A DNA stretch of 38,691 nt from Longimicrobium sp. (GCA_036389795.1 DASVWD010000215.1:1-38691), one strand, 5' to 3'; positions 11,922 to 34,235 are shown, numbered from the stretch's first letter. A program made the numbers and translations. Notes: generated from the sequence alone by a model not told the origin.

Positions 11922-12911
11922 TCAACTCCCCAGCTTCGCAAGCGACTCCTGCGCGGGCTTGAAGTCCGGGTCGAGCGTCAGCGCGGCGCGGTATGAGGCA
12001 CGGGCTTGGTCGAGCTTCCCCTCGCGCTCGTAGATCATGCCTAGCCGCCAGTGTGCGGCGGAAAGGGGAGGCTCGCCAGCACGGGGGGTGTGGCGCAGGT
12101 AGCGCCGCAGCAGCACCGCGCCGCGTTCCATCTGGTTCCCGGTGAGCACGCTGAGCCGCGCGAGCTGGTAGTAGGCGGTCATCTCCTGTGGCTGACGTTG
12201 CATCAGGCGCTCGAAAACGCCCACGCTCGCATCGAGGCGCTGCATCTGCTCGTAGGTGTTCCCCAGCCCCACGTACAGGCCGACGCTGTCGGGGAAGTGG
12301 CGGAGGCCCGCCTCCAGTTCGCGCGCCGCGGCCGCCAGGTCGTCCTGCTCGCGGTAGACGGCGGCGTGGGCGTACACGCCCGCGTACGCGTTGCGCCGTC
12401 GGATCTCGCCCGCCTGTTCCAAAGCCCTCTCCCTGCCTCCCCCCAGCACGCCAGGGGCGAGCATGTAGAAGCGCATCAGTCCCCAGCGCGCCTCGACGCT
12501 GTTGGGCGCCAGCGACACGGCGGCCTCGAACTCGGTTTTGGCCTTGCGGGCAAGGAGGGCGCGGCGGATGACACTGGCGCGCATGGCCTTCAGTCCGTAC
12601 GCGTTTCCCAGGTTCAGGTGATGGTCGGCGCTGCGGCCGTCAAGTACCACGGCCCGCTCCAGCCACTCCACTGCGCGGTCGACGTCGCGCTCGGAGAGGT
12701 GCGTGAGCCCCACGTAGTAGGCGGCGCGAGCGTCGCGCGGATGGCTCTGCGCGTATGGCTCAATGGCGCGGCGAGCGGCGGCGTACTGCCCCTGCTCGAA
12801 CAGGCGCACCCCGCGGGCGATGGGGTCCTGCGCCAGGAGCGGCGGCGCGAAGAGCGCCAGGAGCACCGCGGCGGCGAGGATGCGGCGCGCGAGTTGGGAC
12901 GGTGACTGCAT
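11922..12911 (-). CDS. Exported TPR-repeat protein, 329 aa
   Basis: MQSPSQLARRILAAAVLLALF...LLAQD is a Sec signal peptide with a likely signal peptidase I site after LLAQ (about residue 28), so the protein acts outside the cytoplasm. The mature part is made of classic TPRs: GVRLFEQGQYAAARRAIEPY, RAAYYVGLTHLSERDVDRAV, ADHHLNLGNAYGLKA, GLYVGLGNTYEQMQRLDASV and SAAHWRLGMIYEREGKLDQA. It is unlike the three cytoplasmic 440-aa TPR proteins in repeat regularity and export. It lies 137 bp after the M28 peptidase gene on the same strand, at the end of the RiPP cluster. Membership of the cluster is uncertain. Confidence 0.85.
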   Translation of the reverse strand: MQSPSQLARRILAAAVLLALFAPPLLAQDPIARGVRLFEQGQYAAARRAIEPYAQSHPRDARAAYYVGLTHLSERDVDRAVEWLERAVVLDGRSADHHLNLGNAYGLKAMRASVIRRALLARKAKTEFEAAVSLAPNSVEARWGLMRFYMLAPGVLGGGRERALEQAGEIRRRNAYAGVYAHAAVYREQDDLAAAARELEAGLRHFPDSVGLYVGLGNTYEQMQRLDASVGVFERLMQRQPQEMTAYYQLARLSVLTGNQMERGAVLLRRYLRHTPRAGEPPLSAAHWRLGMIYEREGKLDQARASYRAALTLDPDFKPAQESLAKLGS

Positions 12912-13048: not shown

Positions 13049-14599
13049 TTAGTGCAGCAGGTTCTCCAGGAACTCCACCATGCTGCGGGCGGGCTGGCGG
13101 CAGGCGCCGGGCCCGGGCTCAGAAGCCTGGGGAAGGGGCTCGGGATCTTCGGAAGCCAGGTACGCCAGCATGGCGAGCAGGACAGCGTTGGCCCGCAGGT
13201 CGTCGAAGACCAGCTTGTCGTACGTGTCGCGGTCGGTGTGCCAGGTGTAGCCGCGGTAGTCCCACTCCAGCGACTCGAGATTGAACGCGGGCGCGCCTCG
13301 ACAGACAAACGCCGCGTGATCGCTCCCGCCGTTCTCCCGCACGCCCGGTGCGCTTACCTCCACTCCACCGCCGAGGTCCGTGGGGACGCGCGAGAACCAG
13401 CTGGCGAAGCGGGCGCCGGCGCCCGGGAGCCCTTGCATGGAGACGCGGGTGACGCGCCCCGTCCCCTGGTCGAGGTTGAAGAGCGCGTGCAGCCCGCGCA
13501 CCACCTCCGGGTGGTCGTCGGCGAAAGCGAGCGAGCCGTTCAGCCCCTGCTCCTCGCCGCTCCAGTGCCCGGCCATGATCGTCCGCTTCGGGCGCGGAAC
13601 GAGTTCCTTCAGGATGCGCATGGCCTCCATCACGGCCACGGTGCCGGCGCCGTTGTCGGTCGCGCCGGACGCGGCGTCCCACGAATCAAGGTGTGCGGAG
13701 AGGACGACGTACTCCTCGGGCTCCTCCGACCCGGGGATCACTGCGAGGGTGTTGAAGACGTCCACATCGCCGTCGAACTTTCCTTCGGCGTCGATGCGCA
13801 GCACCGGGCCCTGGCGGTTTTCGGCGAGGCGGAAGACCAGGCCGTAGTCCTCGCACCCCAGGCCGAGCATGGGAGCGCGCAGCGTCCACGCGTTGAGCAC
13901 CGGGTGAGCGCCCCACCCCCCGGAGCGCGGGGCGGAGAGGACCCCCAGCACCCCGGCTTCTTCCAGCCGCACCGGCAGCCAGCGAGCGTCCGCGCCGCTC
14001 ATGGCCACGCGGCGAGCCCAGGCGGCGTCAATGTCGGCGCGCTCGCGCCGCATCCGCTCCAGCCCCTCGGGCGTGGCCCACCGCTCCCAGGTCTCGGGCG
14101 GCCGGCAGGTGCGCTGCGGGGCGGAGACGAGCACCCACTTCCCTTTTGCGGTCGCCAGCCACGCCTCGAATTCTGCGCGCGACGCGGCGGCGGGGAGGAC
14201 GACTGCCTCGCCCTCCAGCGGTCCCCCGGTGCCTGGGCTCCACGCCAGCAGGGTGCCTTCCAACGAGCGGACGCGAGGCTCCCGCAGGTCCACGTGGGTG
14301 ATCCCGCGGCGCCAGCCGGTCCAGGTCCCGTACTTCTCGCTCCGCGCCTCGATCCCCCAGGCGCGGTACTGGGCGACGGCCCACACGTGCGCCGCCGCGG
14401 CTCCGGGCGAGCCGGTGAGGCGCGGACCGATGGAGTCGAGGAGCGCCTGCGCCAGCGGCTCCAGCTGTGAGTCCTCCGTCCCCTCGCGGCGGATGGCCTC
14501 CAGCACGGCGTTGGCCGGAGGCGGAGCCTGCGCGATGACCCGGGCGGCGAGGGCGGCCGCGGCGAGGACAGCCGCGGCGAGGAGGAACGGGCGCTTCAT
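13049..14599 (-). CDS. Exported M28-family metallopeptidase (carboxypeptidase Q-like)
   Basis: The start is set at the ATG at 14599 (MKRPFLLAAAVLAAAALAAR..., a Sec signal peptide ending near AQ24) although the frame is open further upstream. Of 516 residues, the C-terminal half is a two-zinc M28 domain: H303 and D315 (SAHLDSWD, GATDNGAG), catalytic and ligand pair E349/E350 (WSGEEQG), D377 (NLDQGTG) and H454 (YTWHTDRDTY). All five metal positions are present, so activity is expected. The sequence around SAHLDSWD and GATDNGAG is typical of plasma glutamate carboxypeptidase/CPQ-type enzymes. It may degrade leader peptide or scavenge peptides in the periplasm. It lies within the same-strand run of the RiPP cluster, which makes a link possible but not certain. 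Confidence 0.92.
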   Translation of the reverse strand: MKRPFLLAAAVLAAAALAARVIAQAPPPANAVLEAIRREGTEDSQLEPLAQALLDSIGPRLTGSPGAAAAHVWAVAQYRAWGIEARSEKYGTWTGWRRGITHVDLREPRVRSLEGTLLAWSPGTGGPLEGEAVVLPAAASRAEFEAWLATAKGKWVLVSAPQRTCRPPETWERWATPEGLERMRRERADIDAAWARRVAMSGADARWLPVRLEEAGVLGVLSAPRSGGWGAHPVLNAWTLRAPMLGLGCEDYGLVFRLAENRQGPVLRIDAEGKFDGDVDVFNTLAVIPGSEEPEEYVVLSAHLDSWDAASGATDNGAGTVAVMEAMRILKELVPRPKRTIMAGHWSGEEQGLNGSLAFADDHPEVVRGLHALFNLDQGTGRVTRVSMQGLPGAGARFASWFSRVPTDLGGGVEVSAPGVRENGGSDHAAFVCRGAPAFNLESLEWDYRGYTWHTDRDTYDKLVFDDLRANAVLLAMLAYLASEDPEPLPQASEPGPGACRQPARSMVEFLENLLH

Positions 14600-14729
14600 G
14601 TCGCTGAAATGGTGCAACTGCGGGAGCCTGGTTGATGTGGCCGGTGCTGGATCGGATGGGTGCTGCCGGATGGGACCCTGCCCTCTCGACGCGCGCCGAC
14701 GATCCGACATACCAACGGGCGCGTCCGTC

Positions 14730-15917
14730 TCAGTCCGTCCGAAGGGCGGCGAGGATACGCTCCAGGAGCGCGTCGACGGCGGCCGAGGGGGCGGGTGGAC
14801 GGTCGCGCGGGCGCAGGCGCGCGTAGCCAGTGGCATCCGTCCGGCGGCGGAGCTCGTCCGCGCGGCGTGCGCGCTCGGCGGGACGGTCGCTGGCCGCCAG
14901 GAGGCGCAGAATCTCAATCTCCATCACCTCGTCGTCCAGGCGGCGCGCGCCCGCGGCCACGCGCCCGGCAAGGGTGCGCGCGGCGGCCGAGGGAACGTGA
15001 AGAACCGCGAGCGCCGCCAGCGCCTGCACGATCAGGAGCGCGGGGAGCTGCAGCCCCTCCAGCCCGCCCATCCGCCCGAAGACGGCCACCAGTTCACCCA
15101 GCGTGCCGGCCGCACTCGTCTCGTCGCCGGCCAGCAGAAGGAGTTCGGCACGGCGCACGTGCGCCACCATGCGGTCCCAGACGCTCCCCGCGCGCACGGC
15201 AGGCTCCACCTGCGCCAGGGCGACGTCCACTCGCCCCTCGCGCCCGAGGGCGATCCAGCGCGCCTCGCGCAGGAAGGCCGCGGCGCCGCCCGCGCCGCGC
15301 TCCGCGTCGCCGTCCGCCATCTCCCGCACCTCGGCCCAGCGGCCGGCGGCGAGAAGGACGCGGAGCCCGTCGATTGCCCACGCGGTGCGGGCGAAGCGCT
15401 CCAGCCCGGCGGGTTCCCACCCTGCGGCCTTCCAGTGCGCGGGGATGATGGCGCGTCCGGCGAGCGACACGGGCGCATCCATCCGGCAGGCGCGCACCTC
15501 GGCATAGTGGCGTAGTGCGGCGGCGGCGTGGCCGCGCAGGGCGTGCAGGCGGCCCAGGTTTATCCAGGGCTGCAGCGCCAGCGCCAGGAGCGCTCCCTCC
15601 CCCGTGCGGTCGGCGCCCGCCTGCAGCCAGGCGACCTGCGCGCGCACGACGCGCTCGGCATCGTCAAGCCGGCCGGCATGCGCGAGGATGAGCGAGGCGT
15701 TGTTCCCGCACCCGGTGACTGTCCGCGCCCGGCCTATCACGTCGGGCTCGGCGAGTGCGGTGGCCAAGCTCCCGGAGAGATCCTCGGCCCACGCTCCCAG
15801 CGGGCGCCGCGCGGGCTGCTCGTTGACCGTGAGCAGGCGCACCCCGGGAAGCGCCGCCGCGTGCGAGTTCGGCGTCAGGGGCGGAGCGAGGGTTGGGGCG
15901 GCCAGTGCGGCACTCAT
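14730..15917 (-). CDS. Helical-repeat (TPR-like) protein, 395 aa
   Basis: The protein has no signal peptide and consists of Ala-rich helical pairs resembling degenerate TPRs: NASLILAHAGRLDDAERVVR, INLGRLHALRGHAAAALRHY and AAFLREARWIALGREGR. No catalytic motif is visible. A VTGCGNNASL element near residue 70 and a basic C-terminus (ELRRRTDATGYARL) stand out. It starts 119 bp after the fatty acyl-AMP ligase gene on the same strand. TPR-type proteins in biosynthetic clusters often scaffold or regulate, but I do not recognise this one. Confidence 0.75.
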   Translation of the reverse strand: MSAALAAPTLAPPLTPNSHAAALPGVRLLTVNEQPARRPLGAWAEDLSGSLATALAEPDVIGRARTVTGCGNNASLILAHAGRLDDAERVVRAQVAWLQAGADRTGEGALLALALQPWINLGRLHALRGHAAAALRHYAEVRACRMDAPVSLAGRAIIPAHWKAAGWEPAGLERFARTAWAIDGLRVLLAAGRWAEVREMADGDAERGAGGAAAFLREARWIALGREGRVDVALAQVEPAVRAGSVWDRMVAHVRRAELLLLAGDETSAAGTLGELVAVFGRMGGLEGLQLPALLIVQALAALAVLHVPSAAARTLAGRVAAGARRLDDEVMEIEILRLLAASDRPAERARRADELRRRTDATGYARLRPRDRPPAPSAAVDALLERILAALRTD

Positions 15918-16036: not shown

Positions 16037-17779
16037 TCATGCACTCCGCGTCTCCACGTGAAGCAGCCGTTCAGGAATCGCCAACGCGCCGTCCATGTAG
16101 AGGCTCCGCAGCCGCACGCGCTGGATCTTCCCGCTGGAGGTGCGGGGGATGGAGCGCGGGAGCACCAGCACCACATCGCGCACGGGGAGCTGGAACTCCT
16201 GCAGCACGCAGAGGCGGATGCGCTCGGGAAGCGCCTGGTGTCCGCCGTCCTTGAGCGCCCGGGGTGGCTCGGCGACCACCACCAGCTGCTCGCCCCCGGC
16301 CGTGGCATCGTACACGCCGAAAGCGGCCACCCCGCCCAGGTCGTCGCGCAGCCGTGCTGCGAGCGCCGCCTCAATGTCGGAGGGGACGAAGGTGCGGCCG
16401 CCGTACTTGAGAATCTCCTTGATGCGGCCGATCACGTGCAGTTCCCCATCCAGCACCACGCCCACGTCGCCCGTGGGCACCCAGCCTTCGACCGCCACGG
16501 GGCGCATCTCGCCGTCCGCTCCGCAGAAGGCGGTGGTGGCGCTGATGCCGGCGATGTGGATCTGTCCCACGCGCCCCGCAGGGAGGTCTCGCCCGTCGTC
16601 GTCGCGGATTGAGATCCTCGTCCCTCGCACGGAGCGGCCGTTTCCCACCGTCGCCTGCGCGTCGACCGCGTCGCCCTCCCCGTTGCCCAGGACGCGCACC
16701 TCGCCGCGCGCCAGGGCGCTCCGGCTCAAGCGGCGGACCGGCACTTCAGTCCCCGGCGTGCGGAGGGTGACTGCGACGCAGTTCTCAGCCAGGCCGTAGG
16801 CGGGCTGGAGGACGCCCGGGCGCAGGCCGAGCGCAGCGAAACGCTCCTCAAAGTGGCGCGAGCTCTCGGCGTGAACCGTCTCGCTCCCGTTCAGCGCCAG
16901 CCGCAGCGACGACAGGTCGTGCTGGCGCAGCCGCTCCCACGCCGCAGGGCGCTGGCTGCGCGCCAGGCAGAGCGAGTAGCCGAACTGGGGCCCCATGGTG
17001 ATGGTGCCGCGGTAGCGCGCGACCGTCTCCAGCCAGCACAGCGGGTTGCGGACGAAGTCCGCGGGGCGCAGCAGCACCAGCATGCCCCCCGACCAGAGCG
17101 AGCCCAGGAGCGCGCCGACCAGTCCCATATCGTGGTAGAGCGGAAGCCAGCTCACCGTCACGTCGTGCGCGCCGCCGCCCAGCCGCTCGGTGACGGCAGC
17201 CAGATGCGCGTTCACGTTCCCGCGCGTGAGGCACACGCCCTTGGGCTGCGCCGTGCTCCCGGAAGAGAACTGGATGAGGAGGAGGTCGTCCGCGCGGCGC
17301 TCGGCGTCCACGAAGCCATCGACCGGCGACCCGGCGGCGAGCAGCGGCTCGACCGCGAGCACGCGCACGGGGATCTCCGCTGCCGAAAGCGCGGAGGCGA
17401 ACGCGGCGAGGCTGGGTTCGGCCACCAGGCACCAGCGGGCGCGTCCGGCGCGGAGGGCGGCGCGCACGGCATCGCTCTTCGCATCACCCGGAACAGGGGC
17501 GGCCACGTCCTGCACAGGGACGAGGGTCGCGCCCAGGCGCTGGACGGCGATCAGGGTGACCACCGTCTCCCACCGCGACGACATCGCCAGCGCCACGCGG
17601 GCGCCACGCTCCACGCCGCGCGCGCGCAGGGCGGCGGCCACCGTCGCGCTCCGAGCCCAGAGCGACGCGTAGGTATGGCGCTCCTCGGCGGCGCCGGGGG
17701 TGACGAGCGCCAGGTGATCGGGGTTGCGGGCATGTTCGCGGACCGCCTCCGGAACGCCGCGCTCCAGGTCGAACGTCAT
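16037..17779 (-). CDS. Fatty acyl-AMP ligase (FAAL-type adenylate-forming enzyme)
   Basis: The enzyme should activate a fatty acid as acyl-AMP and load it on the ACP encoded upstream. The start is the ATG at 17779, which overlaps the preceding stop as ATGA and follows GGAGGGGAAGG; a longer frame upstream is not needed. The 580 residues carry the P-loop LLLIQFSSGSTAQPKG (about 167-181), the FAAL-like WLPLYHDMGLVGALL (211-225), the adenine-binding YGLAEN, TGDVGVV, the hinge GRIKEILKYGGRTFVPSDIE and, near the end, SSGKIQR with the catalytic lysine. It is probably competent. With ACP and two dehydrogenases it matches the lipid-starter cassette of ramoplanin/enduracidin-type pathways. The exact chain length cannot be read. 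Confidence 0.9.
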   Translation of the reverse strand: MTFDLERGVPEAVREHARNPDHLALVTPGAAEERHTYASLWARSATVAAALRARGVERGARVALAMSSRWETVVTLIAVQRLGATLVPVQDVAAPVPGDAKSDAVRAALRAGRARWCLVAEPSLAAFASALSAAEIPVRVLAVEPLLAAGSPVDGFVDAERRADDLLLIQFSSGSTAQPKGVCLTRGNVNAHLAAVTERLGGGAHDVTVSWLPLYHDMGLVGALLGSLWSGGMLVLLRPADFVRNPLCWLETVARYRGTITMGPQFGYSLCLARSQRPAAWERLRQHDLSSLRLALNGSETVHAESSRHFEERFAALGLRPGVLQPAYGLAENCVAVTLRTPGTEVPVRRLSRSALARGEVRVLGNGEGDAVDAQATVGNGRSVRGTRISIRDDDGRDLPAGRVGQIHIAGISATTAFCGADGEMRPVAVEGWVPTGDVGVVLDGELHVIGRIKEILKYGGRTFVPSDIEAALAARLRDDLGGVAAFGVYDATAGGEQLVVVAEPPRALKDGGHQALPERIRLCVLQEFQLPVRDVVLVLPRSIPRTSSGKIQRVRLRSLYMDGALAIPERLLHVETRSA

Positions 17780-19008
17780 CCTTCCCCTCCCTCGAGGGCA
17801 GCCCGCCGCATCAGCGCCGCGAGCCGGCTCCCGTACAGCTCGCGCATGGTCTCCGAGGTCCCCGCGAACACGCTGAGGACGCGCACCTCGCGGATCACAC
17901 GCTCCAGCCCCGCGTCTTCCCACGCCGCCGCGGGACCGCGCAGGCGGACGCAGTCGTCCACCACGCGCTGCGCCAGCTCGCAGAGGGCGAACTTGGCCAT
18001 CGAGGCCGCGGCCGCGTCGGTGCGCCCGGCGCCCACCTCGCCCGCGGCGCGGTAGGCGAAGGCGCGCGCGCCCTGCAGCCAGGCGTGCATCCGTGCCAGC
18101 GGGGCCGCGGCCGCCGGGGCGGACGTCGCCGCCGTCTCCTCCAGCACCGAGCCGGCGAGCGCGAGCGAGCCGACGGCGATCAGCAGCCGCTCATGGCAGA
18201 GGACGTGGGCCATCTGCGGATAGCCGTGCCCGGCGCGGCCCACCGTGAGGCGCGCGGGGACGCGGCAGCGGTCGAGCCGCACGTGCCCGGTGGGCGACGC
18301 CTCCAGCCCCAGCTTGCAGTGCCAGGCCACCGTCTCGAATCCCGGTGCGTCGGTGGGGACCGCGATCAGCGACATGGTGAGCGGACCCGCGCCGGGCGAG
18401 GTGCGCGCCAGGACGAGGACCACGTCGGCGATGGGGGCGTTGGTGATGAACATCTTCTCGCCCGTGACCACCCACTCGGTACCCTCGCGGACGGCCGTGC
18501 ACGAGACGGTGTGGGGGAGCGCAGAGCCGCCGGCCGGCTCGGTCGCGCCCAGCGCGCCGATCGCCTCGCCCGCAGCCAGCGGCGCCAGCCACTCGCGCCG
18601 CACCTCAGCCGAGCCGAACAGGGCCAGGAGTGGGCAGAGGGTGTTGGACTGCACCATCAGGCTCACCGCCGCGCTCGTGGCACGGTGACGCATGAGCTCC
18701 TCGGCCAAGGCCACGGCGTAGGAATAGTCCAGCCCGGCGCCGCCCATCTCGGGCGGAACCGTCACCCCCAGGATTCCGGCGCCTCCGGCGGCGCGAAAGA
18801 GCTCGCGGGGGAGGCGCCCCTCGCGCTCCCACCCGTCCAGGTGCGGGAGGACGGCCTCGCGCACCAGTCGTCCGACCCGGACGCGGAAGGCGCGGTGACC
18901 CTCACTCCATGCGTACGGCGCGTCCGTGCCCGGGGCGCTCCGGAGCCCGGCCGGGTCGCGCGCGGCGTCCGCCGACTCGGCGGCTGGAAGGGAGAGGAGG
19001 TCGGTCAT
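17776..19008 (-). CDS. Acyl-CoA (acyl-ACP) dehydrogenase 2
   Basis: The 410-residue flavoprotein starts at the ATG at 19008, which overlaps the stop of dehydrogenase 1 (ATGA). The family pattern is complete: the N-terminal helical domain ends at the FAD-binding segment GALGATEPAGGSALPHTV, then WVVTGEKMFITNAPIADVVL (strong ACAD signature), KLGLEASPTGHVRLDRCRVP, and the C-terminal VFAGTSETMRELYGSRL. The usual catalytic Glu of the YEG motif is Ala here (FAGTSE). The alternative base position of long-chain/isovaleryl enzymes is kept (CHERLLIA), so activity by that Glu is likely. It presumably introduces a double bond into the acyl chain on the ACP. Confidence 0.92.
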   Translation of the reverse strand: MTDLLSLPAAESADAARDPAGLRSAPGTDAPYAWSEGHRAFRVRVGRLVREAVLPHLDGWEREGRLPRELFRAAGGAGILGVTVPPEMGGAGLDYSYAVALAEELMRHRATSAAVSLMVQSNTLCPLLALFGSAEVRREWLAPLAAGEAIGALGATEPAGGSALPHTVSCTAVREGTEWVVTGEKMFITNAPIADVVLVLARTSPGAGPLTMSLIAVPTDAPGFETVAWHCKLGLEASPTGHVRLDRCRVPARLTVGRAGHGYPQMAHVLCHERLLIAVGSLALAGSVLEETAATSAPAAAAPLARMHAWLQGARAFAYRAAGEVGAGRTDAAAASMAKFALCELAQRVVDDCVRLRGPAAAWEDAGLERVIREVRVLSVFAGTSETMRELYGSRLAALMRRAALEGGEG

Positions 19009-20135
19009 GCGGGCACGCCGAAGGCAGATTCGAAGTGGTGCGCCGGGGGCGCGGACACAGCGCGCAGGTCCTCGGCGGCGGCGCGCTCCAGGGCGCCTGG
19101 GTCGCCGGCGGCGAGCAGCCCCACGCTCAGCAGGTCGCGGTACAGGTGCGAGGCCGGGTGGTCGGCCATGAAGCCGCGGGCGCCCATCAGCTGCATGCAT
19201 CCCTCGGCGACCCGCAGCGCGGCGTCCACCGTGACCAGCATCAGCGCCGCCGCGCGCGGGGGAGCGAGGGCGTCGCGGAGGCACGCATCGGCTGCCTCAC
19301 CCGCAAAGGCGGCGGCGATCTCCAGGTCGGCCATCAGGTCCGCCAGGCGGTGGCGGACGGCCTGCTGATCGCCCAGCACCCGTCCGGGGCCGAAGGCGCG
19401 CGTCCCCGCGAAGGCCAGCGTGCGCCGCAGCACCTCCTCCGCCGCGGCGACGACCGCCGTCGCGAGCAGAAGCCGCTCCTCCGCAAGCGCCCCGGCGATC
19501 CCCGGCGCTCCAGCGGCGAAGACTCGCTGGGCGGGATCGACGAGACACCCGTCCAGCCGCACCTCCCCCAGGGCGGCGGCGTGCAGCCCCACCGCGCCAC
19601 GCGGCACGATGGAGACGCCGGGGTCCGCCAGCGAGACCACGGCCAGCGCCCCCGTCCCGGCGCCGGGGACCAGTTCCAGGGGAACGATGACCCAGTCCGC
19701 GCCGGGCGCGTTCAGCACTGCGCCCAGGACGCCGTCCAGCCGCAGCCCGCCCGATTCCCCCAGGCGCTGCGCCCGCACCCCGTCGCCTTCACGCGCCCAC
19801 GCGACGCAGCCGACCGCCTCCCCCGCGAGCATCGGCGTCAGGACACGCGCCTGCACGGCGGGCCCTGCATGGCGATCCAGCAGGAGGAGCGGCGCGCCGA
19901 CTGCATGCAGCAGCGTGGCCGCGGTCCCCAGGGAGCCGGCGCGGCCCAGCGCGTCCGCCAGTTCCAGCCGGCCGGCGGCGTCCTCCGCCGCCGGAAGGAG
20001 CCCTGCGCGCCCCAGCGCCCGCACCTCCGCAAACGGCGCGGCGCGCTCCCGCTCCCACGCCTCCACGCGGAGCGCCACGTGGTCGCGCACGAACGTGGCG
20101 GCGGCCGACCGGGCGGGGCAGGTGGGGATGATCAC
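19005..20135 (-). CDS. Acyl-CoA (acyl-ACP) dehydrogenase 1, divergent
   Basis: Start: GTG at 20135 overlapping the ACP stop as GTGA. The 376-residue protein is an acyl-CoA dehydrogenase relative. The C-terminal helical domain is clear (AEERLLLATAVVAAAEEVLR, ALRVAEGCMQLMGARGFM, ASHLYRDLLSVG). The middle beta-domain is degenerate compared with dehydrogenase 2: the WVVTGEKxFITN signature is replaced by LRLDGVLGAVLNAPGADWVI. The C-terminal GTxEI motif is absent (LLAAGDPGALER). An ERLLLA glutamate at the long-chain-type base position remains. It may be catalytic or a partner subunit of dehydrogenase 2. Pairs of such dehydrogenases desaturate the acyl chain in ramoplanin-like clusters. Confidence 0.85.
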   Translation of the reverse strand: MIIPTCPARSAAATFVRDHVALRVEAWERERAAPFAEVRALGRAGLLPAAEDAAGRLELADALGRAGSLGTAATLLHAVGAPLLLLDRHAGPAVQARVLTPMLAGEAVGCVAWAREGDGVRAQRLGESGGLRLDGVLGAVLNAPGADWVIVPLELVPGAGTGALAVVSLADPGVSIVPRGAVGLHAAALGEVRLDGCLVDPAQRVFAAGAPGIAGALAEERLLLATAVVAAAEEVLRRTLAFAGTRAFGPGRVLGDQQAVRHRLADLMADLEIAAAFAGEAADACLRDALAPPRAAALMLVTVDAALRVAEGCMQLMGARGFMADHPASHLYRDLLSVGLLAAGDPGALERAAAEDLRAVSAPPAHHFESAFGVPA

Positions 20136-20407
20136 GCGGCCGGGCTCCCCGTGGGCGCGGGCACCAGCGAGTCGCCGATGGCCGCGATCAGCGCGGCCAT
20201 GGTCATTTCGGGCGCCAGGCGGGTGGAGAGCGCCTCGGTATCCACCTCGCCGTGCAGCGCCTGCTCCACCGCCACCACCGACTGCGCCAGCGCCAGCGAG
20301 TCCAGTCCCACGGAAGAGACCGTGGCGCCGTCGTGCAGCACCTCCACCTCCACCCTCAGCTCGGCGGCGATGGCCTCGCGGATCGCTTCCCTGTGGTCGT
20401 CGCTCAT
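20132..20407 (-). CDS. Acyl carrier protein
   Basis: The 91-residue protein has the carrier-protein fold signature: an N-terminal helix (HREAIREAIAAELRVE), then SSVGLDSLALAQSVVAVEQ with Ser37 as the phosphopantetheine attachment site (GLDSLAL), and a short C-terminal helical part. The extra acidic C-terminal tail is short. The stop overlaps the GTG of dehydrogenase 1, beginning the coupled run ACP, dehydrogenase 1, dehydrogenase 2, FAAL. No phosphopantetheinyl transferase is in the window, so that activity must come from elsewhere. The carried acyl chain is the probable donor for the LPLAT-like transferase encoded upstream. Confidence 0.92.
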   Translation of the reverse strand: MSDDHREAIREAIAAELRVEVEVLHDGATVSSVGLDSLALAQSVVAVEQALHGEVDTEALSTRLAPEMTMAALIAAIGDSLVPAPTGSPAA

Positions 20408-20553: not shown

Positions 20554-22965
20554 TCAGTCATGGCGAAGTGCGACGGAGGGCTCCACGCGGGTGGCCGCAC
20601 GGGCGGGGATGAATGCGGCGGTCAGCGCCACGGCGAACATCACCACCGGGCCCGCGGCGAACACCACCAGGTCCGAGCCACCCACTCCGTACAGGAGCGA
20701 GCGCAGCAGCCGGGTGAGCACCCACGACGCGGGGAGCCCCAGCACCACCGCCATCCCGGCCAGCCGCGCCCCGCGCGCGACGAACAGCGCCGTCACCGCG
20801 CGCGGCGAGGCGCCCAGCGCCGCGCGGATGCCGATCTCCTGCGTGCGCTGCCGCACCGTGTACGAGAGGATGCCGTAGATCCCCAGCGAGGAGAGTCCCA
20901 ACGCGATGACCGCGAAGACACCGGCCAGCCAAGCGTACAGACGCGGGAGCCACATCGAGCGGCGCGCCACCTCGTGGAGCGTCCCGGCCTGATCCACCGG
21001 GAGCTCCGGATCGATGCGACGGAGCTCCCCGCGCACGCCCGGGATCACGTCGGCGGGATTCCCGGCACGGGTGCGAACCACCAGTCGCCCAAACGGAAGC
21101 GCCGCCTGCGCGAGCGGGACGTACACGGTGGGCCAGGGGGGGAGGGCCACCCGCGTGTCCTTCACGTCGCCCACCACCCCCACCACCTCGCGCCAGGGGC
21201 CGGCGGCGCGGCCCAGCCGCACCCGCTTCCCCACGGCGCTCTCCCCTGGCCACCAGAGCCGTGCCATCGTCTCGTTGACCACCACCACCGGCACCGCGTC
21301 GGCGCGCTCGCTCCCGTCGAAGGCACGACCGGCGCGCAGCGGGATGCGCATCACCCGGAAATAGCCGCGGCTCACCGGATTGGAGAGGGCGAACGGAGCC
21401 TCCTCGCCCGCGGCCGCGACGCGGCCCTCGACGGCGACCTCGCTCCCCCGGCCCCCACCGCCCAGCGGGAGGACGCCCACCGCAGCGGCACCCTCCACCC
21501 CGGGGAGCGCCGAGACGCGGGCGATCAGCTCGTCCCACAGCGCCTGCTGCTGCGCCGACGCCGGATAGCGCCGCAGCGAGAGCGCCAGGCGCGCGGTGGC
21601 CACCCCCTCCGCGCGGAAGCCGGGGTCCACGGCCCGCAGTGCCACCAGGCTCTTCGCCAGCATCCCGGCGCCCACCAGCAGCACCAGCACCAGCGCCGTC
21701 TCGACCACCACCAGCGTACCCTGCATCCGGCCGGCGTGCGCGTCGGTGGTGCCGCGCCCGCCGGCTTTCAGCACCTCCTGTAGCTCCACCCGCCGCAACT
21801 GCAGCGCGGGCGCCAAAGCGAAGAAGACGACGCCGGCCAGAGAGAGCCCCGCCGCGAAAACCAACACTCGCCAGTCGAGGGAGAAGTCCACCCAGAAGGG
21901 GAGCTGGATGGGAATGGCCGCCACAAGAAGGCTGCGTCCGGCGAGCCCCATGAGCACCCCGGCGGCACCGCCCAGTCCGGCCAGCACCGCCCCCTCGGCC
22001 ACGAGCTGCCGAACAATTCGCCCGCGGGAAGCTCCGAGCGCGCTGCGCACCGCCATCTCCTTGCGGCGTTCCACCGAGCGGGCCAGGAGGAGATTGGCCA
22101 CGTTGGCCCAGGCGATCGCCATTACCACCAGGGTAAGCCCCTGGAAGAGGAGCGCGGCGTGGCCGGTCTCGCCGCGTAGCGCCTCGTGCAGCGGCCTTAC
22201 CGCGACGGTAACCCCGTCGTTGCTCTCCGGGTGTGCCTCGGCCAGGCGCCAGTTGATGATGGCGATCTCGCCCGCCGCGCCCTCCAGCTCCGCCCCGGGC
22301 GCCAGCCGGCCGACTGCGGCCAGGGTGCGCTCGCCGCGGCGGCGGTGCGCGGAGTCGGCCCGGAGCGGCACCCAGAGCTCGGCATACTCGGGGAAGCGAA
22401 AGCCCACCGGCATCACGCCCACGATCGTGTGCTCGGTGCCGTCGATCCTCAGCGTCTTCCCCACCGCTGCGCGATCGCCCCCGTACCAGCGCGTCCACAG
22501 CGCGTGGCCCAGCACCACCACCGCCGGAGCGCTCGGCGCTCCCTCGCCGACGGCGAAGCCGCGGCCCAGGAGGGGGGTGACGCCGAGTACCCGGAAGAGA
22601 TCCTCGCTCACCACCGCCCCGGACGCACGCTCGGCCTCGCCGCCGCCGGAGAGGTCGAAGGCGGCGTCGCGGAAGGCGGCCATCGCGGAGAACGAGCGGC
22701 TCTGCGCCCGCCAGTCGGCGAAATCCGGGTACGAGGTCGACATCCAGTCCACCGTCCCCCGCTCCGGTGTCTGCTCGTCCAGGTACAGCAGCCGGTCCGG
22801 TTCCGGGAAGGGGAGCGGCTTCAGCACCAGCGGGTTCAGCACGCTGAAGATCGTGGTGTTCGCCCCCACGCCTAAGGCGATTGCGCCCACCGCCAGCAGC
22901 AGGAAGCCGCGGGTGCGGAAGAGCGCGCGGACCGCGAAACGCAGGTCGTGGGTCAGGAATTCCAT
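20554..22965 (-). CDS. ADOP/MacB-type ABC permease, 803 aa
   Basis: The protein begins MEFLTHDLRFAVRALFRTRG, the usual start of acidobacterial duplicated orphan permeases. It has two FtsX-like halves, each with an N-terminal membrane helix, a periplasmic MacB core and several C-terminal helices. Visible elements: GAIALGVGANTTIFSVLNPL (first helix), GVMPVGFRFPEYAELWVP (periplasmic core), ANLLLARSVERRKEMAVRSA (coupling helix) and TQEIGIRAALGASPRAVTAL (second coupling helix). No ABC ATPase gene is in the window, so it must borrow one, which is why such permeases are called orphan. In this cluster it probably exports the mature peptide or helps place it in the envelope. It starts 110 bp after the M50 gene ends. 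Confidence 0.93.
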   Translation of the reverse strand: MEFLTHDLRFAVRALFRTRGFLLLAVGAIALGVGANTTIFSVLNPLVLKPLPFPEPDRLLYLDEQTPERGTVDWMSTSYPDFADWRAQSRSFSAMAAFRDAAFDLSGGGEAERASGAVVSEDLFRVLGVTPLLGRGFAVGEGAPSAPAVVVLGHALWTRWYGGDRAAVGKTLRIDGTEHTIVGVMPVGFRFPEYAELWVPLRADSAHRRRGERTLAAVGRLAPGAELEGAAGEIAIINWRLAEAHPESNDGVTVAVRPLHEALRGETGHAALLFQGLTLVVMAIAWANVANLLLARSVERRKEMAVRSALGASRGRIVRQLVAEGAVLAGLGGAAGVLMGLAGRSLLVAAIPIQLPFWVDFSLDWRVLVFAAGLSLAGVVFFALAPALQLRRVELQEVLKAGGRGTTDAHAGRMQGTLVVVETALVLVLLVGAGMLAKSLVALRAVDPGFRAEGVATARLALSLRRYPASAQQQALWDELIARVSALPGVEGAAAVGVLPLGGGGRGSEVAVEGRVAAAGEEAPFALSNPVSRGYFRVMRIPLRAGRAFDGSERADAVPVVVVNETMARLWWPGESAVGKRVRLGRAAGPWREVVGVVGDVKDTRVALPPWPTVYVPLAQAALPFGRLVVRTRAGNPADVIPGVRGELRRIDPELPVDQAGTLHEVARRSMWLPRLYAWLAGVFAVIALGLSSLGIYGILSYTVRQRTQEIGIRAALGASPRAVTALFVARGARLAGMAVVLGLPASWVLTRLLRSLLYGVGGSDLVVFAAGPVVMFAVALTAAFIPARAATRVEPSVALRHD

Positions 22966-23075: not shown

Positions 23076-24401
23076 CTATCCTGCCCGTTGTGAGGCCTGC
23101 GCCTGGCGCGGCCGCACCTCGCGCCAGACGGCGCGCGCGGCGCGGGCCAGACCGAGGAGCATGGATCCCAGGCGAACGACGAAGTGATAGGTGAACTTGA
23201 CGGTACCGATCAGCACCAGCGTTCGCCACGACACCGACAGTAGCGCTGAGCCCAGAGCCACCAAGTGGAAGGGTCCCAGCGCCGTCCACACCCCGCGCAG
23301 CGCCGCCGGATAGGTGACCGCCACCGCCATCAGCAGCCGCTGGAAGACGAAGTGGAAGGTGAAGACGAAAAAGGCGAGCCCCACCCCCGAGTACGCGAGC
23401 AGCACGGCGAGCGCCCCGCGCGAGAGGGGGAGCGGCTCCGGCCGCACCCGCCCGCGCCCGAAGAGGCGGAGGAAGACCCAGCGGGGGAGCCCCGCGGTGC
23501 GCGCGTGCAGGTTGGGAATGCCCAGCACGTCCGACATCAGCCAGTACCCGTCCATCTTGAAGAACGGGTTCAGCGAACTGGCGATGGCCAGGTCGGTGGC
23601 CAGGAACACGTACAGCGGCACCGCCGACCCCGTGGACGCGAAGACGCCCAGGAGCGCCGCGGCGAAGAGTGCCTGGAAGTAGATGCCCCCCACGTCGATC
23701 AGCGCGCGCTGCTTCCGGGGCAGCCGCCAGGCCTCGGAGAGGTCGGTGTAGAGGACGGTCATGTAGTAGTACATCCCCCACCCGATCTCCAGCCGGCGGC
23801 ACCCGAGCCACGCCGCCGCCGCCGCGTGCCCCAGCTCGTGCAGGAAGGTGCTGGCCACCATCAACCCCAGGATGGCCCCGAAGCGCGGCCCCCGCACCTG
23901 CTGGAACCCCAGCCCGTGCTCCGGCGCCAGCTTCAGCCAAAAGAGGAGGTGCGCGGCGGCGATCAGCACCAGGCCGGCGGCGAACGCCGGACGCGAGAAC
24001 GTCCACCCAACCAAACGGGCCAGCGGGGTGACCACCGACGGCGGGAGGAGCCGCATCCGGAGCGTCAGATACGACAGCCGATCTGCCTTCTTTGCGGGGA
24101 GCGGCGCCGCCTCCGCGCCCACCGGCGCCAGGATGCCGCGGGGGACCAGAAAGCCGTCCACCAGCTTGTGGACGTCCGCCGCAGAGAGGCCGCCGCGCGC
24201 CTCAGCGGCTCGCGCCACCTCGTCGGTCGCGCGCGTGCCATCGAACTCGCGCAGCAACGCCGCCAGCCGGGTGGGGACCACGAAGCGCGCCGCGGAGCCA
24301 TCCACGCGCGGCACCTCGCACAGCGTCTGCGGCTCCACGCCCGCGCCATCGAACGGGCAGGTCTGGATCGCGGTGTTGAAGCGGAGGAGAGTCGAGCTCA
24401 T
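23076..24401 (-). CDS. M50-family membrane metalloprotease with N-terminal PqqD-like domain
   Basis: The start is the ATG at 24401, preceded by GGAAGGA. In 441 residues, about 40-95 form a PqqD-like winged-helix region (VVPTRLAALLREFDGTRATD, ending in a short helix and LVPRGIL), the type that binds RiPP leader peptides. Residues 140-430 are a polytopic membrane domain with zinc motif HELGH (188-192) and downstream NPFFKMDGYW (278-287, Asp284 the third ligand). Both motifs are intact, so proteolysis inside or at the membrane is expected. It follows the precursor gene by 225 bp. Its likely job is to cut the leader or couple cleavage with export. YydH- and daptide-type clusters also contain membrane proteases, but this is not a proven homolog. 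Confidence 0.88.
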   Translation of the reverse strand: MSSTLLRFNTAIQTCPFDGAGVEPQTLCEVPRVDGSAARFVVPTRLAALLREFDGTRATDEVARAAEARGGLSAADVHKLVDGFLVPRGILAPVGAEAAPLPAKKADRLSYLTLRMRLLPPSVVTPLARLVGWTFSRPAFAAGLVLIAAAHLLFWLKLAPEHGLGFQQVRGPRFGAILGLMVASTFLHELGHAAAAAWLGCRRLEIGWGMYYYMTVLYTDLSEAWRLPRKQRALIDVGGIYFQALFAAALLGVFASTGSAVPLYVFLATDLAIASSLNPFFKMDGYWLMSDVLGIPNLHARTAGLPRWVFLRLFGRGRVRPEPLPLSRGALAVLLAYSGVGLAFFVFTFHFVFQRLLMAVAVTYPAALRGVWTALGPFHLVALGSALLSVSWRTLVLIGTVKFTYHFVVRLGSMLLGLARAARAVWREVRPRQAQASQRAG

Positions 24402-24626: not shown

Positions 24627-24842
24627 TTAGATCTGGGTCGCGCTGAGGCCGGCGCTGGGTTCGAGGCTGCCGCCGCCGCCGCCGCCGCTGGTGCAATAGG
24701 CGTTGGTCGTGGGGCCGGAGGGGCTGCAGGTGGTGTTGGTCCCGCCGGTGGTGCAGCCGCAGTTGTCGTCGCAGAGCTCGGCGAACTCGAGGCGGTCCTC
24801 GAGTTCCAGGATCGAGAACTCCGCAGTCAGCTTCTGGTCCAT
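24627..24842 (-). CDS. RiPP precursor peptide, 71 aa, five Cys and a Gly6 run
   Basis: A GGAGTGA ribosome site precedes the ATG. The leader part (1-22) is acidic and helical (FSILELEDRLEFAE, residues 9-22). The core begins near residue 23: LCDDNCGCTTGG with Cys24, Cys28 and Cys30, then Cys39 and Cys50, many Thr/Ser/Asn/Gly, followed by six Gly (53-58) and the tail SLEPSAGLSATQI. Small size, an acidic hydrophobic leader, a Cys/Gly/Ser/Thr-rich core and placement between maturase and protease genes make it the likely substrate. The Cys residues could take thioether bonds from the radical SAM enzyme; Ser/Thr could be dehydrated, but no dehydratase is seen. Lipidation at a nucleophile is proposed from the neighbours. 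No known precursor family was recognised. Confidence 0.85.
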   Translation of the reverse strand: MDQKLTAEFSILELEDRLEFAELCDDNCGCTTGGTNTTCSPSGPTTNAYCTSGGGGGGSLEPSAGLSATQI

Positions 24843-24943: not shown

Positions 24944-26239
24944 TCAGTCGCTCTCACGGAGGAGCCCGTGGGCCTGCAGTCGCGCCAGCACGTCGAGCGT
25001 GGGGCCGCGCTCCCCGGCCGGAAGGTCTTCGACGGCGGCCCGGTCGAGCCCCCGCTCCGTCTCGAGGGGGCGGAGGAGCTCCGCCGCCTCCGGAGGGAGC
25101 GGGAAGGCACGCAGCGTCCGCGCGTCCACCAGCGCCGCCCCTGCCCGGCCGTCAAGCCGCACGCAGCGGCCCACGTCCAGGCGGAAGGCGGCACCCGAGC
25201 CGAGCCGGCGCTCCACGGCCACCGGGTCCGGCGGACCTTCCACGGGCGGCGCCACCCCGGCCAGCCGCCAGCGGTGCAGGAAGCGGACGTCCTGCCACTC
25301 GGCCGGGTCCCCCGCCACGTGCTCCGCGAAGAAGTCGTACAGCGCCTGCATGGTGCGGTGGACGTGCTCGGCCGCGTCTTCGCCAGGGGGCGGGGGGAGG
25401 ATCGGGACGCCGCACGCCACCCGCCCCGGGTGCGGCCCGTCGGGGAGTGCGGCCACGGGGAGGATCGCCGCGCCGTTGGCGGCGGCCAGGCGCGCTGCAC
25501 CGGTCATCACCCGCAGTTCCATCCCTAGGAAGCGCACCGCGCAATGCGAGAGCACCGCCTCGCCTCCTCCCCAGCCGCGGTTGCCGTCCACGTTCAGGTA
25601 GGCCGCGCCCCCGCCGCGCAGAGCGCGCACCAGGGTGACCAGCCCGGCGGGGTCGTCGATCCGCGCCACCTTCAGCCCGTGCAGACCGGACGCCCCGTTC
25701 CCGCCGCGGCGGTTCTCCTCCACGGTGCGGGTGTCCACCGCGAAGGTGAGCGGGAGACCCAGGTGACAGAGGTCGGTGGGGACGAAGCGGTACGAGCCGA
25801 AGTGGAAGCCGCACACCAGCACCCCGCGCCCGTCCGCACGCAGCGCCTCCAGCGGCGCCTCGTCCCACCCTCTCAGCACCGGACCATTTCCTCCCGGGCC
25901 CGCATCACCGTTCCCCGCGCCGATGCGGCGCAGCGCGGCGTCGTGGTAGCGCATGTTGTGCTGCCACCCGCGCCATAGCCGGTTGCGCGCGCACTGCGCC
26001 GCCACGCTGCGCACCTGCTCCGCCGGCCACCTCTCGCCGAAGAGCGACGTAAGGTTCAGCAGGCACGCCTGATAGCCGAAGGGGACCAGCCCCTCACCAT
26101 TCAGCCGCTGGATGGCGGTGTGCACCTCGTCGGGCTCGCCGCACAGCTCGCCCAGGTAGCGGGCCACCCGCCGTCGGAGCATGTCCTGCCCCTCCGCGCG
26201 ACCCTGGGGGGGAGCGGCAGTCACGGCGGTCACCGCCAT
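24944..26239 (-). CDS. LPLAT/HtrB-like acyltransferase with C-terminal PqqD-like domain
   Basis: The start chosen is the ATG at 26239, 24 bp after the radical SAM stop; the upstream open frame is the shadow of that gene. In 431 residues the order is: N-terminal helical region (1-110), LPLAT-like acyltransferase core (130-320) and PqqD-like winged helix (350-431, FRLDVGRCVRLDGRAGAALV ... LARLQAHGLLRE). Core hallmarks: GVLVCGFHFGSYRFVP, AAYLNVDGNRGWGGGEAVLS and AARLAAANGAAILPVAAL, as in LpxL/HtrB. The catalytic HX4E box is altered: His146 is present but the acid position is Arg151 (HFGSYR). The fused PqqD-like domain should dock on the precursor leader, so the acyl group may be put on the peptide. 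It is the most unusual protein in the window. Alternative: a non-catalytic carrier or scaffold. Confidence 0.85.
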   Translation of the reverse strand: MAVTAVTAAPPQGRAEGQDMLRRRVARYLGELCGEPDEVHTAIQRLNGEGLVPFGYQACLLNLTSLFGERWPAEQVRSVAAQCARNRLWRGWQHNMRYHDAALRRIGAGNGDAGPGGNGPVLRGWDEAPLEALRADGRGVLVCGFHFGSYRFVPTDLCHLGLPLTFAVDTRTVEENRRGGNGASGLHGLKVARIDDPAGLVTLVRALRGGGAAYLNVDGNRGWGGGEAVLSHCAVRFLGMELRVMTGAARLAAANGAAILPVAALPDGPHPGRVACGVPILPPPPGEDAAEHVHRTMQALYDFFAEHVAGDPAEWQDVRFLHRWRLAGVAPPVEGPPDPVAVERRLGSGAAFRLDVGRCVRLDGRAGAALVDARTLRAFPLPPEAAELLRPLETERGLDRAAVEDLPAGERGPTLDVLARLQAHGLLRESD

Positions 26240-26262: not shown

Positions 26263-27747
26263 CTAGACGGCGGCGGGGATGTTGGGGTCCACCCGAGTGC
26301 CGTCCTTGAGCACCCGGGTGGGGTGAATGCGCTGCTTTCCGGCTTCGTACGTCTCCAGGAGCGCCGTGTGCAGCGCGCGCTTGATGGGCGGGCAGGGGCG
26401 GTTGCCGCTCTCGATGCGCTCCATCGGACAGTGCATTCCCTGGCAGACCGGCACCATGTAGCACTTGGCGCAGCCGCTGTCGTTCTCGAACGCCGGCTCC
26501 GTCCATAGGCTCATCTTGTCCAGGTCCAGGTTCAGCTCGCCGTCCGGCGTGAGCTGGCCCACCACGTTGTAGTCCTTCTTGTCGAGCGCCACCGTGCACT
26601 TCATCACCTTCCCTGTGGCGCCGATCAGGAAGTTGTAGGGGCGGGCGGCATAGCAGACGCCGTTGCCCGGGCGCGACATCGACCCGATCCCGCGCGTCTC
26701 GAAGCCCTGCTCGATGGCCGTGCGGTTCATCTCGCCGCGGACCTTCTTCTCCTCGTCGAGCCCGCAGGTGGAGAGGTTCTGATCATTGTCGCCGCCCCAC
26801 TTCCCCACCGCGTGGAAAGACAGGTGGTAGCGCGGGTCGCCGCCGAACTCCTCCCCGATCATCCGCACGAACTCGGGGAGTGCGGGGGCGTTTTCCCGGT
26901 CGTAGTTCACGCGCAGCGTCACGCGGAACTGATCCGGGCGGGCCTTGAGCGCCTGCAGGTTGGCGAAGATGGTGTCGAAGGTGCCGCTCCCGTCGCGGCC
27001 CACCCGCTTCTTGTTGTGGTACTGCGCGGGCCCGTCCAGGGTGATCTGGAAGTCGCGGATCCCCCACCCCAGCAGCTTGCCGGCGGTCTCAGGGGTCAGC
27101 AGGTACCCGTTGGTGGTCATGTGGCACCCGAAACCCAGCCCGTTCTCACGCGCCGTCTCCTGGAGGAAGGGAGCCAGGTCCTCCACCGCCTCCATTCCGT
27201 ACAGCGGCTCGCCGCCGAAATAGCTGACGGAGAGTTCCTTCAGCCGCGGAGCGCGCTTCCGCACCAGCGCCTTGACGGCCTCGCGTGTCTCCGGCGTCAT
27301 GGTGCCGCGGGCGAAGTCCTCGTAGCAGTACACGCAGCGGAAGTTGCAGTCCTCGCTGGTCATCAGAATCAGCGACAGGATGTCGGTACGGTACTGCTGT
27401 TTCCCGAAAGCGAACTGCAGGCGCTGGCGCTCGTTGGTGCCCCTGCTCACGAGGTAGCCGCGCTTGTGCAGGTACTCCACCATGCCCTCCAGCTTCGCCG
27501 TGATCCCCTGCTGGACCAGGAGCCGTTCCACCGTCTCGACCTGTTCCGGCTCGAATACAGTGATCTTCCCCGAGAAGGTATTCCACATCACCAGGCGGCC
27601 GTCGGGCGAAGTGGTGCGGGTGTTGTAGCGCGAGGGAACGAACTGGCGCCTCCCGGTCGGCAACGGCGGGATCTGGACCAACTGCTTGGGCTTGCAGGGC
27701 GACGCGTCCAGCGGCGACTGCCGCATGATGTCGGGAGTGCCGATCAT
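26263..27747 (-). CDS. Radical SAM/SPASM peptide maturase with N-terminal PqqD-like domain
   Basis: This 494-residue enzyme has an N-terminal PqqD-like region (about 45-105, WNTFSGKITVFEPEQVETVE then LEGMVEYLHKRGYLV). The radical SAM core has CNFRCVYC (Cys134, Cys138, Cys141 bind the cluster) and YFGGEPL (176-182). A C-terminal SPASM domain has Cys365, Cys384, Cys426, Cys429, Cys435, Cys440 and Cys452 for two auxiliary clusters (CAKCYMVPVCQGMHC). All are intact. Such enzymes form thioether (sactipeptide/ranthipeptide) or C-C crosslinks in RiPPs; the precursor has five Cys, so thioether formation is a natural guess. Start: MIGTPDIM with GAGG upstream. A 7-bp inverted repeat lies about 100 bp upstream. 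Confidence 0.95.
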   Translation of the reverse strand: MIGTPDIMRQSPLDASPCKPKQLVQIPPLPTGRRQFVPSRYNTRTTSPDGRLVMWNTFSGKITVFEPEQVETVERLLVQQGITAKLEGMVEYLHKRGYLVSRGTNERQRLQFAFGKQQYRTDILSLILMTSEDCNFRCVYCYEDFARGTMTPETREAVKALVRKRAPRLKELSVSYFGGEPLYGMEAVEDLAPFLQETARENGLGFGCHMTTNGYLLTPETAGKLLGWGIRDFQITLDGPAQYHNKKRVGRDGSGTFDTIFANLQALKARPDQFRVTLRVNYDRENAPALPEFVRMIGEEFGGDPRYHLSFHAVGKWGGDNDQNLSTCGLDEEKKVRGEMNRTAIEQGFETRGIGSMSRPGNGVCYAARPYNFLIGATGKVMKCTVALDKKDYNVVGQLTPDGELNLDLDKMSLWTEPAFENDSGCAKCYMVPVCQGMHCPMERIESGNRPCPPIKRALHTALLETYEAGKQRIHPTRVLKDGTRVDPNIPAAV

Positions 27748-28053: not shown

Positions 28054-28926
28054 TCACGCTCTGGCGACGATCCCCAGCTCTTCTTCGTACACCCTGCCAC
28101 GCGCGTCGGCGAGCTCCGTGTCAGTGCTTGTCTGCTCCACCCCGTGCGCGACTGACGACTCGCAGTCCGTCCGCAGGAGGTGGGTGCGGGCGAACACGTG
28201 CAGTCGCGCCGTAATCAGTCTCCCCTCCTCCGCCGGGGTGTAACCAGCCCTGTGCACGAGTCGCTTGGTCAAACGACGGAGCGTATGCTCGTGGACACCC
28301 AGTTCGACCGCTACCTCGGCGGTGCGGCGCCCAGCCAACCTGCGGCGGCTCGCGTGCAGCAGCAGCACCAGCCCGAGGAAATCCACCAGCCGCAGGCTGG
28401 GGCCCGGACCCGCCGTCTTGCGCCACTGCAGGCACAACGTGGTGCGGTCGCAGTGCACGCTCGCCGCCAACTCGGCCACGGAATAGACCGGGCGATGCGC
28501 CAAGCAGGCGTGCATCAGGGCCGTACGCAGCGAGCGGGGAAGGTGCTGCGCCTCGCCCAACAGTTCCCCCAATGCGTGCAGCGAACTGCACGCACTGGCG
28601 CGCTGCACCGCGTCGGCAAGTGCAGTGTCCGCGTTGGCCAACCACACCACCTCCTCCACCATCAGCGAGCACAGATGGCGCGCGTTCTCCATGCACCCGC
28701 GGGTGGCCAGCACAATGGGGTGACAGGGGAATCGCCTACGGAAGCGGCGCAGCTGCGCCACGTCCTCACCCTCGTGGAGCCACTCGATGCGCACCACCGA
28801 GCAGAGTGCCTGCGGCGCTCGCCGCTCGAACTCGCGCCAGTCGTGCACGAGGCAGCGCTCGGGGAGCGGGCCCGCCGCGAGATATCGTTCGAGGCGCGGA
28901 GAGTCTTTCTCGAAGACGAGGATCAT
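28054..28926 (-). CDS. AraC-type transcriptional regulator (probable cluster regulator)
   Basis: In 290 residues, the first 110 (MILVFEKDSPRLERYL... VRIEWLHEGEDVAQLRR, then HPIVLATRGCMENARHL) resemble a degenerate receiver-like or effector domain without a clear phosphorylatable Asp. Residues 148-170 (SVAELAASVHCDRTTLCLQW) and 203-225 (AEVAVELGVHEHTLRRL) form the two helix-turn-helix units of an AraC family DNA-binding domain. It is on the same strand as, and just upstream of, the radical SAM gene, separated by a gap with an inverted repeat. It probably controls the RiPP cluster. The family call rests on the paired HTH pattern. Confidence 0.75.
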   Translation of the reverse strand: MILVFEKDSPRLERYLAAGPLPERCLVHDWREFERRAPQALCSVVRIEWLHEGEDVAQLRRFRRRFPCHPIVLATRGCMENARHLCSLMVEEVVWLANADTALADAVQRASACSSLHALGELLGEAQHLPRSLRTALMHACLAHRPVYSVAELAASVHCDRTTLCLQWRKTAGPGPSLRLVDFLGLVLLLHASRRRLAGRRTAEVAVELGVHEHTLRRLTKRLVHRAGYTPAEEGRLITARLHVFARTHLLRTDCESSVAHGVEQTSTDTELADARGRVYEEELGIVARA

Positions 28927-34064: not shown

Positions 34065-34235
34065 GGCTGCTGCTCCTTCGGCCGGGCTGCGAACAAAAAA
34101 CCTCCGGAAATGATGCGTCCGCCCAGCCCTCCCGGTCAACGGTCGTGAAGATCCCCCGCTGCCGGATGCAGACCCGCCGGAGAAGACAGCGGGGCGTCCG
34201 TCGTCACCGCGCGCCGACCTGCCTACCCCACCCAT

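Follow-up and report, generated by a model that had tools for sequence, protein, structure and literature searches.

A fatty acyl-AMP ligase cassette with a predicted composite dehydrogenase lies in a radical SAM RiPP cluster of Longimicrobium

Which acyl chain is made by a compact cassette of an acyl carrier protein (ACP), two acyl-CoA dehydrogenase (ACAD) homologues, here DH1 and DH2, and a ligase, and for which product? We addressed this in a stretch of 38,691 nucleotides from Longimicrobium sp. (the window), where a preliminary description had read these genes as a translationally coupled unit resembling those that make dienoyl fatty acids for ramoplanin and enduracidin. The four open reading frames are confirmed, the Pfam scan identifying them as an ACP, two ACAD-family proteins and an AMP-binding ligase, and they overlap on the minus strand at the three junctions originally given (GTGA, 20135-20132; ATGA, 19008-19005; ATGA, 17779-17776). 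By themselves these overlaps carry little weight, since start/stop overlaps are frequent in GC-rich genomes and the window has a G+C content of 70 %. In G243, a genome from a second genus of this family, the cassette is found in identical order, with close coupling through ATGA and TGATG-type junctions, and with protein identities of 63 % (ACP), 53 % (DH1), 70 % (DH2) and 63 % (ligase). The cassette is therefore a real, conserved unit. Of 298 genomes sampled from the phylum only 2 yielded DH1, and a search of plasmids with it gave no match. A DH1 profile run on genome contigs found four distant ACADs only, an absence of weak value given that the strict patterns may have missed near relatives; the search in a second phylum (centre G310) also gave distant ACADs only, which are of no use for judging kinship to Ramo-type enzymes. 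The Rfam scan of the window gave no match.

The ligase had been taken for a fatty acyl-AMP ligase (FAAL) rather than a CoA ligase, and comparison with the PDB agrees: the 16 best matches, which include 3pbk, 7r7e-g, 3kxw and FadD32/28/23, all belong to FAALs or to loading enzymes of FAAL type, with ordinary CoA ligases scoring far lower. Residues 338-390, the site of the FAAL insertion, align continuously with the FAAL 3pbk. The best alignments with 4CL and malonyl-CoA ligase, by contrast, end near 313-328, and others begin near 380. The protein also matches the MbtM model. These alignments indicate a true FAAL-type enzyme, nearer to FAALs than to CoA ligases and with the FAAL-specific insertion, and the acyl-ACP logic attributed to the cassette is supported. 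The genome itself holds 89 matches to the ligase, many of them within open frames of great length (up to 7955 aa), and is rich in NRPS genes.

The patterns of FAD-binding motifs differ between the two dehydrogenases. We aligned them with 63 other ACADs as references, all 63 of which have the E, G and S of [TS]EP..GS, FITN being almost invariant. DH1 had been said to have lost the classical FAD signature; this is correct, and what is missing in both genera is exactly these E, G and S residues and WITN/FITN, whereas DH2 retains both motifs. Conversely, the R, F and G of RxxFG are invariant among the references, the next Q occurs in 61 of 63 and QxxGGxG is almost invariant; DH2 of both genera is without RxxFG..Q and QxxGGxG, and DH1 retains QLxGARGF and R.FG..Q, its R.FG spacing being short by one residue. 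Both proteins retain the isovaleryl-CoA dehydrogenase-type Glu (ERL), the catalytic base in IVD/LCAD (PMC11153573), and the GT of the EGT loop (AGT) is also present in DH2. As judged from these motifs, only the ADP half of the FAD site survives in DH1, and only the flavin-ring half in DH2. In ACADs each FAD is bound between two subunits, so a DH1-DH2 pair could form one full site, with the ring side from DH2 and the ADP side from DH1, and one dead site.

In both genera this fits the motif pattern of the alpha2beta2 dehydrogenase ChsE4-ChsE5, in which the side of the flavin ring and catalytic Glu is preserved in one subunit and the ADP side in the other (PMC11153573), and we predict a heterotetramer with two FAD. 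ChsE4-ChsE5/FadE26-FadE27 of M. tuberculosis is likewise made of two ACADs with a split FAD site, and DH1 matches 4x28_D at 1.2e-9; those enzymes serve steroid-CoA catabolism, whereas DH1 and DH2 are encoded with a FAAL and an ACP in a peptide cluster. The best models for DH2, all below threshold, include the carrier-protein-acting ACADs RedW, PigA and MbtN. DH1 and DH2 thus do not look like two successive desaturases. Their complementary losses suggest one composite active site and a loss of 2 H (-2 Da) rather than -4, so that one double bond per acyl chain is predicted, with both proteins required, and the two dehydrogenations first proposed are not borne out.

The ramoplanin likeness stands only in part. 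Gene order resembles that of rotihibin RthK-J-I-H and of the taromycin/enduracidin type (PMC8552735, PMC9113097), and the cassettes of ramoplanin, rotihibin, enduracidin and taromycin share the FAAL-ACAD-ACAD-ACP gene set, but they differ in their NRPS context and in that single ACAD homologues (LipB) function alone. Rotihibin has two ACADs yet mainly a mono-unsaturated tail (PMC8552735). To place the dehydrogenases, we built a tree in which the Streptomyces FAAL-ACAD-ACAD-ACP loci L108 and L109, and the single-ACAD loci L043, L044, L102, L104 and L111, stand in for Ramo24/25, RthI/J and Tar5/6. The FAAL-linked Streptomyces pairs (ACADs of ~580 aa) form one clade (100/100, branch 2.2), and DH1 and DH2 fall apart from them, among ordinary short ACADs. 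The exact positions of the latter are unsure because of long branches, and their grouping together is a possible artefact. Kinship to the ramoplanin type is thus not supported, as far as these stand-ins represent it. The preliminary description had named two groupings that would speak against it: that of the dehydrogenases with beta-oxidation-type enzymes was found, but the ligase does not group with CoA ligases. The stand-in cassettes (L108, 9331-12929; L109, 9330-12750) lie on Streptomyces plasmids; in their second ACAD, HE....(N/G)D replaces TE....SD and GHA replaces FDG, and they may be pairs with one degenerate partner.

The genes around the cassette are of another kind than those of an NRPS lipodepsipeptide. 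From upstream to downstream, the same strand encodes an HTH regulator, a radical SAM maturase (rSAM), an acyltransferase homologue (LPLAT), a precursor peptide, an M50 protease, an ADOP permease, the cassette, the uncharacterised protein g14730 and an M28 peptidase (Table 1). The best NCBIfam model of the rSAM is TIGR04463 (rSAM_vs_C_rich), at 199.7 bits against a curated cut-off of 525, which places it, by sequence, on a related but separate branch beside the TIGR04463 maturases. The precursor has a leader, FSILELEDRLEFA, and a Cys-rich core. With a maturase, a peptidase and, next to the maturase genes, a precursor whose leader is conserved and whose core is rich in Cys, the region has the make-up of a radical SAM/SPASM RiPP cluster. 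Neither a GNAT acyltransferase nor a lanthipeptide synthetase is among the Pfam matches of the scanned cluster genes. The g14730 protein has no Pfam or NCBIfam match and recurs at four other loci. Outside the cluster, the window encodes a RadC protein (31406-31945) and a protein with lamin-tail and metallo-beta-lactamase domains (32553-34826).

Table 1. Features of the cluster in the window, in order of transcription.
Feature	Position	Strand	Remarks
HTH regulator	28054..28926	-	PF13384 1.4e-6; likewise placed in G243 and G308
Radical SAM/SPASM peptide maturase (CNFRCVYC)	26263..27747	-	TIGR04463 7e-59, below cut-off; 72 % to G243 copy
LPLAT, PatA/LpxM-like acyltransferase homologue, probable RRE-like C-terminus	24944..26233	-	PF03279
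RiPP precursor MDQKLTAEFSILELEDRLEFAELCDDNCGCTTGGTNTTCSPSGPTTNAYCTSGGGGGGSLEPSAGLSATQI	24628..24842	-	71 aa; same leader in G243 (3 copies), G308, G144
M50-type RiPP metalloprotease (HELGH, NPFFKMDG)	23076..24401	-	NF041824 daptide HExxH 6.8e-32, below its cut-off
ADOP family permease	20554..22965	-	TIGR03434 at 871 bits, above its cut-off; present with each of the four LPLAT clusters
ACP	20132..20407	-	91 aa, GLDSL; PF00550 1.2e-7; 63 % identity to G243 ACP
DH1, beta-type acyl-ACP/CoA dehydrogenase subunit	19005..20135	-	376 aa, GTG start; PF00441 1.7e-21
DH2, alpha-type dehydrogenase subunit	17776..19008	-	410 aa; PF02771/02770/00441
FAAL, fatty acyl-AMP ligase	16037..17779	-	580 aa; PF00501 2.9e-62
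g14730, uncharacterised, recurs beside this rSAM type	14730..15917	-	Homologues at rSAM in L086, L088, L089, L097
M28 peptidase, start probably nearer 14730	13049..14917	-	PF04389 3.7e-34; syntenic in G243
TPR protein, cluster membership unsure	11922..12911	-	Syntenic in G243

This context bears on the ramoplanin-like reading, in which DH1 and DH2 act in succession on acyl-ACP and the resulting 2,4-dienoyl group goes to a lipopeptide of an NRPS encoded elsewhere in the genome. The kinds of genes and their order, and the many long adenylation-type frames of the genome, are what this reading would expect. Against this, no NRPS domain was found among the window ORFs scanned against Pfam and no starter C domain or NRPS adjoins the cassette, the linkage to RiPP genes is conserved in a second genus, two independent sites are unlikely given the complementary FAD losses, and the dehydrogenases belong to another clade than the FAAL-linked Streptomyces pairs. 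We consider it quite improbable.

The same genes recur in other genomes. In G243 the whole cluster is found in the order of the window across two contigs: C456 (L093) encodes HTH-rSAM-LPLAT and breaks off at ...ATGAACAT, where a precursor gene starts, and C167 (L011) begins inside a precursor, followed by two more precursors and by M50-ADOP-ACP-DH1-DH2-FAAL-g14730-M28-TPR. We infer the join between them; a break within near-identical repeated precursor genes is expected from short-read assembly. G308 (L085) has ADOP-HTH-rSAM-LPLAT-precursor-M50, followed on the same strand by a carboxypeptidase-regulatory-domain protein, an ACP and a KASII, the last two (14123-15620) being a different acyl module at the place of the cassette. 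G144, from another family (L097), has rSAM-precursor-M50-LPLAT-unknown-g14730 with a divergent ADOP, and no acyl genes, including ACP, were seen within the 20 kb read. LPLAT, the leader LELE[DE]RLEF, M50 and ADOP thus co-occur in four clusters (those of the window, G243, G308 and G144), and at seven rSAM loci without LPLAT we found neither this leader, nor an M50 homologue, nor a clear ACP ORF. This suggests a core of rSAM, LELE[DE]RLEF leader, M50, LPLAT and ADOP with an exchangeable acyl module, which argues for a role of the cassette as acyl donor. G144 is a warning that general acyl pools may be the source used by the LPLAT. Precursor-like ORFs also lie beside related rSAM genes, all on the minus strand (L087, 8607-8909 and 9938-10159; L088, 2890-3519), with the sequences IDVDSLEVEELDQVAGGETDVN.NCYSCTCP and TLELESN.IDPMSDPNVNVQACYPNNCPP. 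This bacterial family has several distinct rSAM peptide clusters, with four rSAM copies in G306.

The LPLAT is the candidate for the transfer step. It matches PF03279 (Lip_A_acyltrans) at 1.9e-5 in the window, 3.2e-12 in G243 and 2.2e-9 in G308, and its top Foldseek matches are PatA (8.5e-9) and LpxM (7e-8), from a poor AlphaFold model (pLDDT 49). The C-terminal stretch weakly matches NF038044, a model of an actinodefensin-cluster protein (E 0.003), and is probably RRE-like. The three aligned proteins share the motif H-[FY]-G-x-x-R, in which the His is kept and Arg replaces the acidic residue of HxxxxD/E; with this HxxxxR, the LPLAT is a putative acyltransferase. As known relatives of the LPLAT acylate glycolipids, the cassette might instead make a free or membrane lipid and lie beside the RiPP operon by chance or shared regulation, the LPLAT acting on lipid like PatA and LpxM, and its presence in G144 without an ACP fits such a role. 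This is rather unlikely: gene order is retained between genera at 53-72 % protein identity, the cassette is flanked by RiPP-linked genes on both sides (precursor and M50 on one, g14730 on the other), g14730 homologues adjoin other rSAM genes, and the LPLAT seems to have an RRE-like C-terminus, although this last point is weak.

The precursor cores of the window and of G243 contain no Lys, so the candidate acylation sites are the new N-terminus or Cys, Ser and Thr. A core that is Cys-rich and Lys-free would also suit a Michael addition, in which a Cys thiol adds to the 2-enoyl-ACP to give a beta-thioether lipid and the LPLAT serves for binding instead of acyl transfer. The altered LPLAT dyad is consistent with this, and the desaturase would gain a clear purpose, but we know of no precedent for such a reaction and regard it as highly improbable.

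On balance, we think it probable that the cassette is the acyl-supply module of a lipidated radical SAM RiPP cluster, with a composite dehydrogenase and acylation of the peptide. Speaking against it are the HxxxxR motif and the poor model of the LPLAT, the G144 cluster, where no ACP was seen within 20 kb, the Lys-free cores and the shortened R.FG spacing of DH1. As the enzyme families suggest, the FAAL would convert a free fatty acid to acyl-AMP and load it on the ACP. DH1 and DH2, acting as one alpha2beta2 dehydrogenase, would then oxidise acyl-ACP to 2-enoyl-ACP (the regiochemistry being presumed), DH2 giving the flavin-ring pocket, the substrate pocket and the catalytic Glu, and DH1 the FAD-ADP contacts, as the sequences of two genera predict. 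The radical SAM enzyme would modify the Cys-rich core, the acyl group would pass from ACP to peptide, most likely through the PatA/LpxM-like LPLAT, the M50 and/or M28 protease would remove the leader, and the ADOP permease would serve export or protection. A comparable logic is reportedly found in the mycobactin mbt-2 locus, MbtM-MbtL-MbtN-MbtK, where a FAAL, an ACP, an acyl-ACP dehydrogenase and an acyltransferase are said (Krithika, in 2006) to equip a peptide with a 2-enoyl chain. The MbtM and MbtN models match the FAAL and DH2; mbt-2 differs in having one ACAD, a GNAT-type transferase and a siderophore substrate.

Lipidated RiPPs are known: lipolanthines, goadvionins, lipoavitides, selidamides, nostolysamides and lipolasso peptides (PMC13060382). 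In these, too, cluster enzymes put a fatty acyl group on a ribosomal peptide, but they have lanthipeptide or lasso cores and use GNATs or a CoA-transferase, whereas the window combines an rSAM-modified core and an LPLAT with supply by FAAL, ACP and ACADs. The cluster would therefore be a variant among lipidated RiPPs, and a new class if peptide acylation is shown. In the open-licence literature we found no paper that joins RiPP and radical SAM with fatty acyl-AMP ligase (an absence that is not proof), none that joins RiPP, radical SAM, lipidated and acyl carrier protein, and none with three of RiPP, radical SAM, lipid A acyltransferase and lysophospholipid acyltransferase. The product is likely a fatty-acylated peptide, and we found no description of its kind there. 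With a little less than even confidence, we propose a new RiPP class of rSAM-modified Cys-rich peptides, acylated by an LPLAT that its own leader-binding domain would guide, and supplied by exchangeable acyl modules (FAAL-ACP with a heteromeric dehydrogenase here, ACP-KASII in G308). In this reading the dehydrogenase would also be, to our knowledge, the first alpha2beta2 ACAD, with one FAD per pair, whose biosynthetic substrate is an acyl chain bound to an ACP.

The equation of two ACADs with two double bonds can mislead, and any prediction of the lipid tails of cryptic clusters should be preceded by a check for split FAD sites; the rotihibin ACAD pair merits this check too. If our reading is true, it would add a radical SAM branch to the lipidated RiPPs, with an LPLAT as transferase and a FAAL, an ACP and a split dehydrogenase as its acyl supply.
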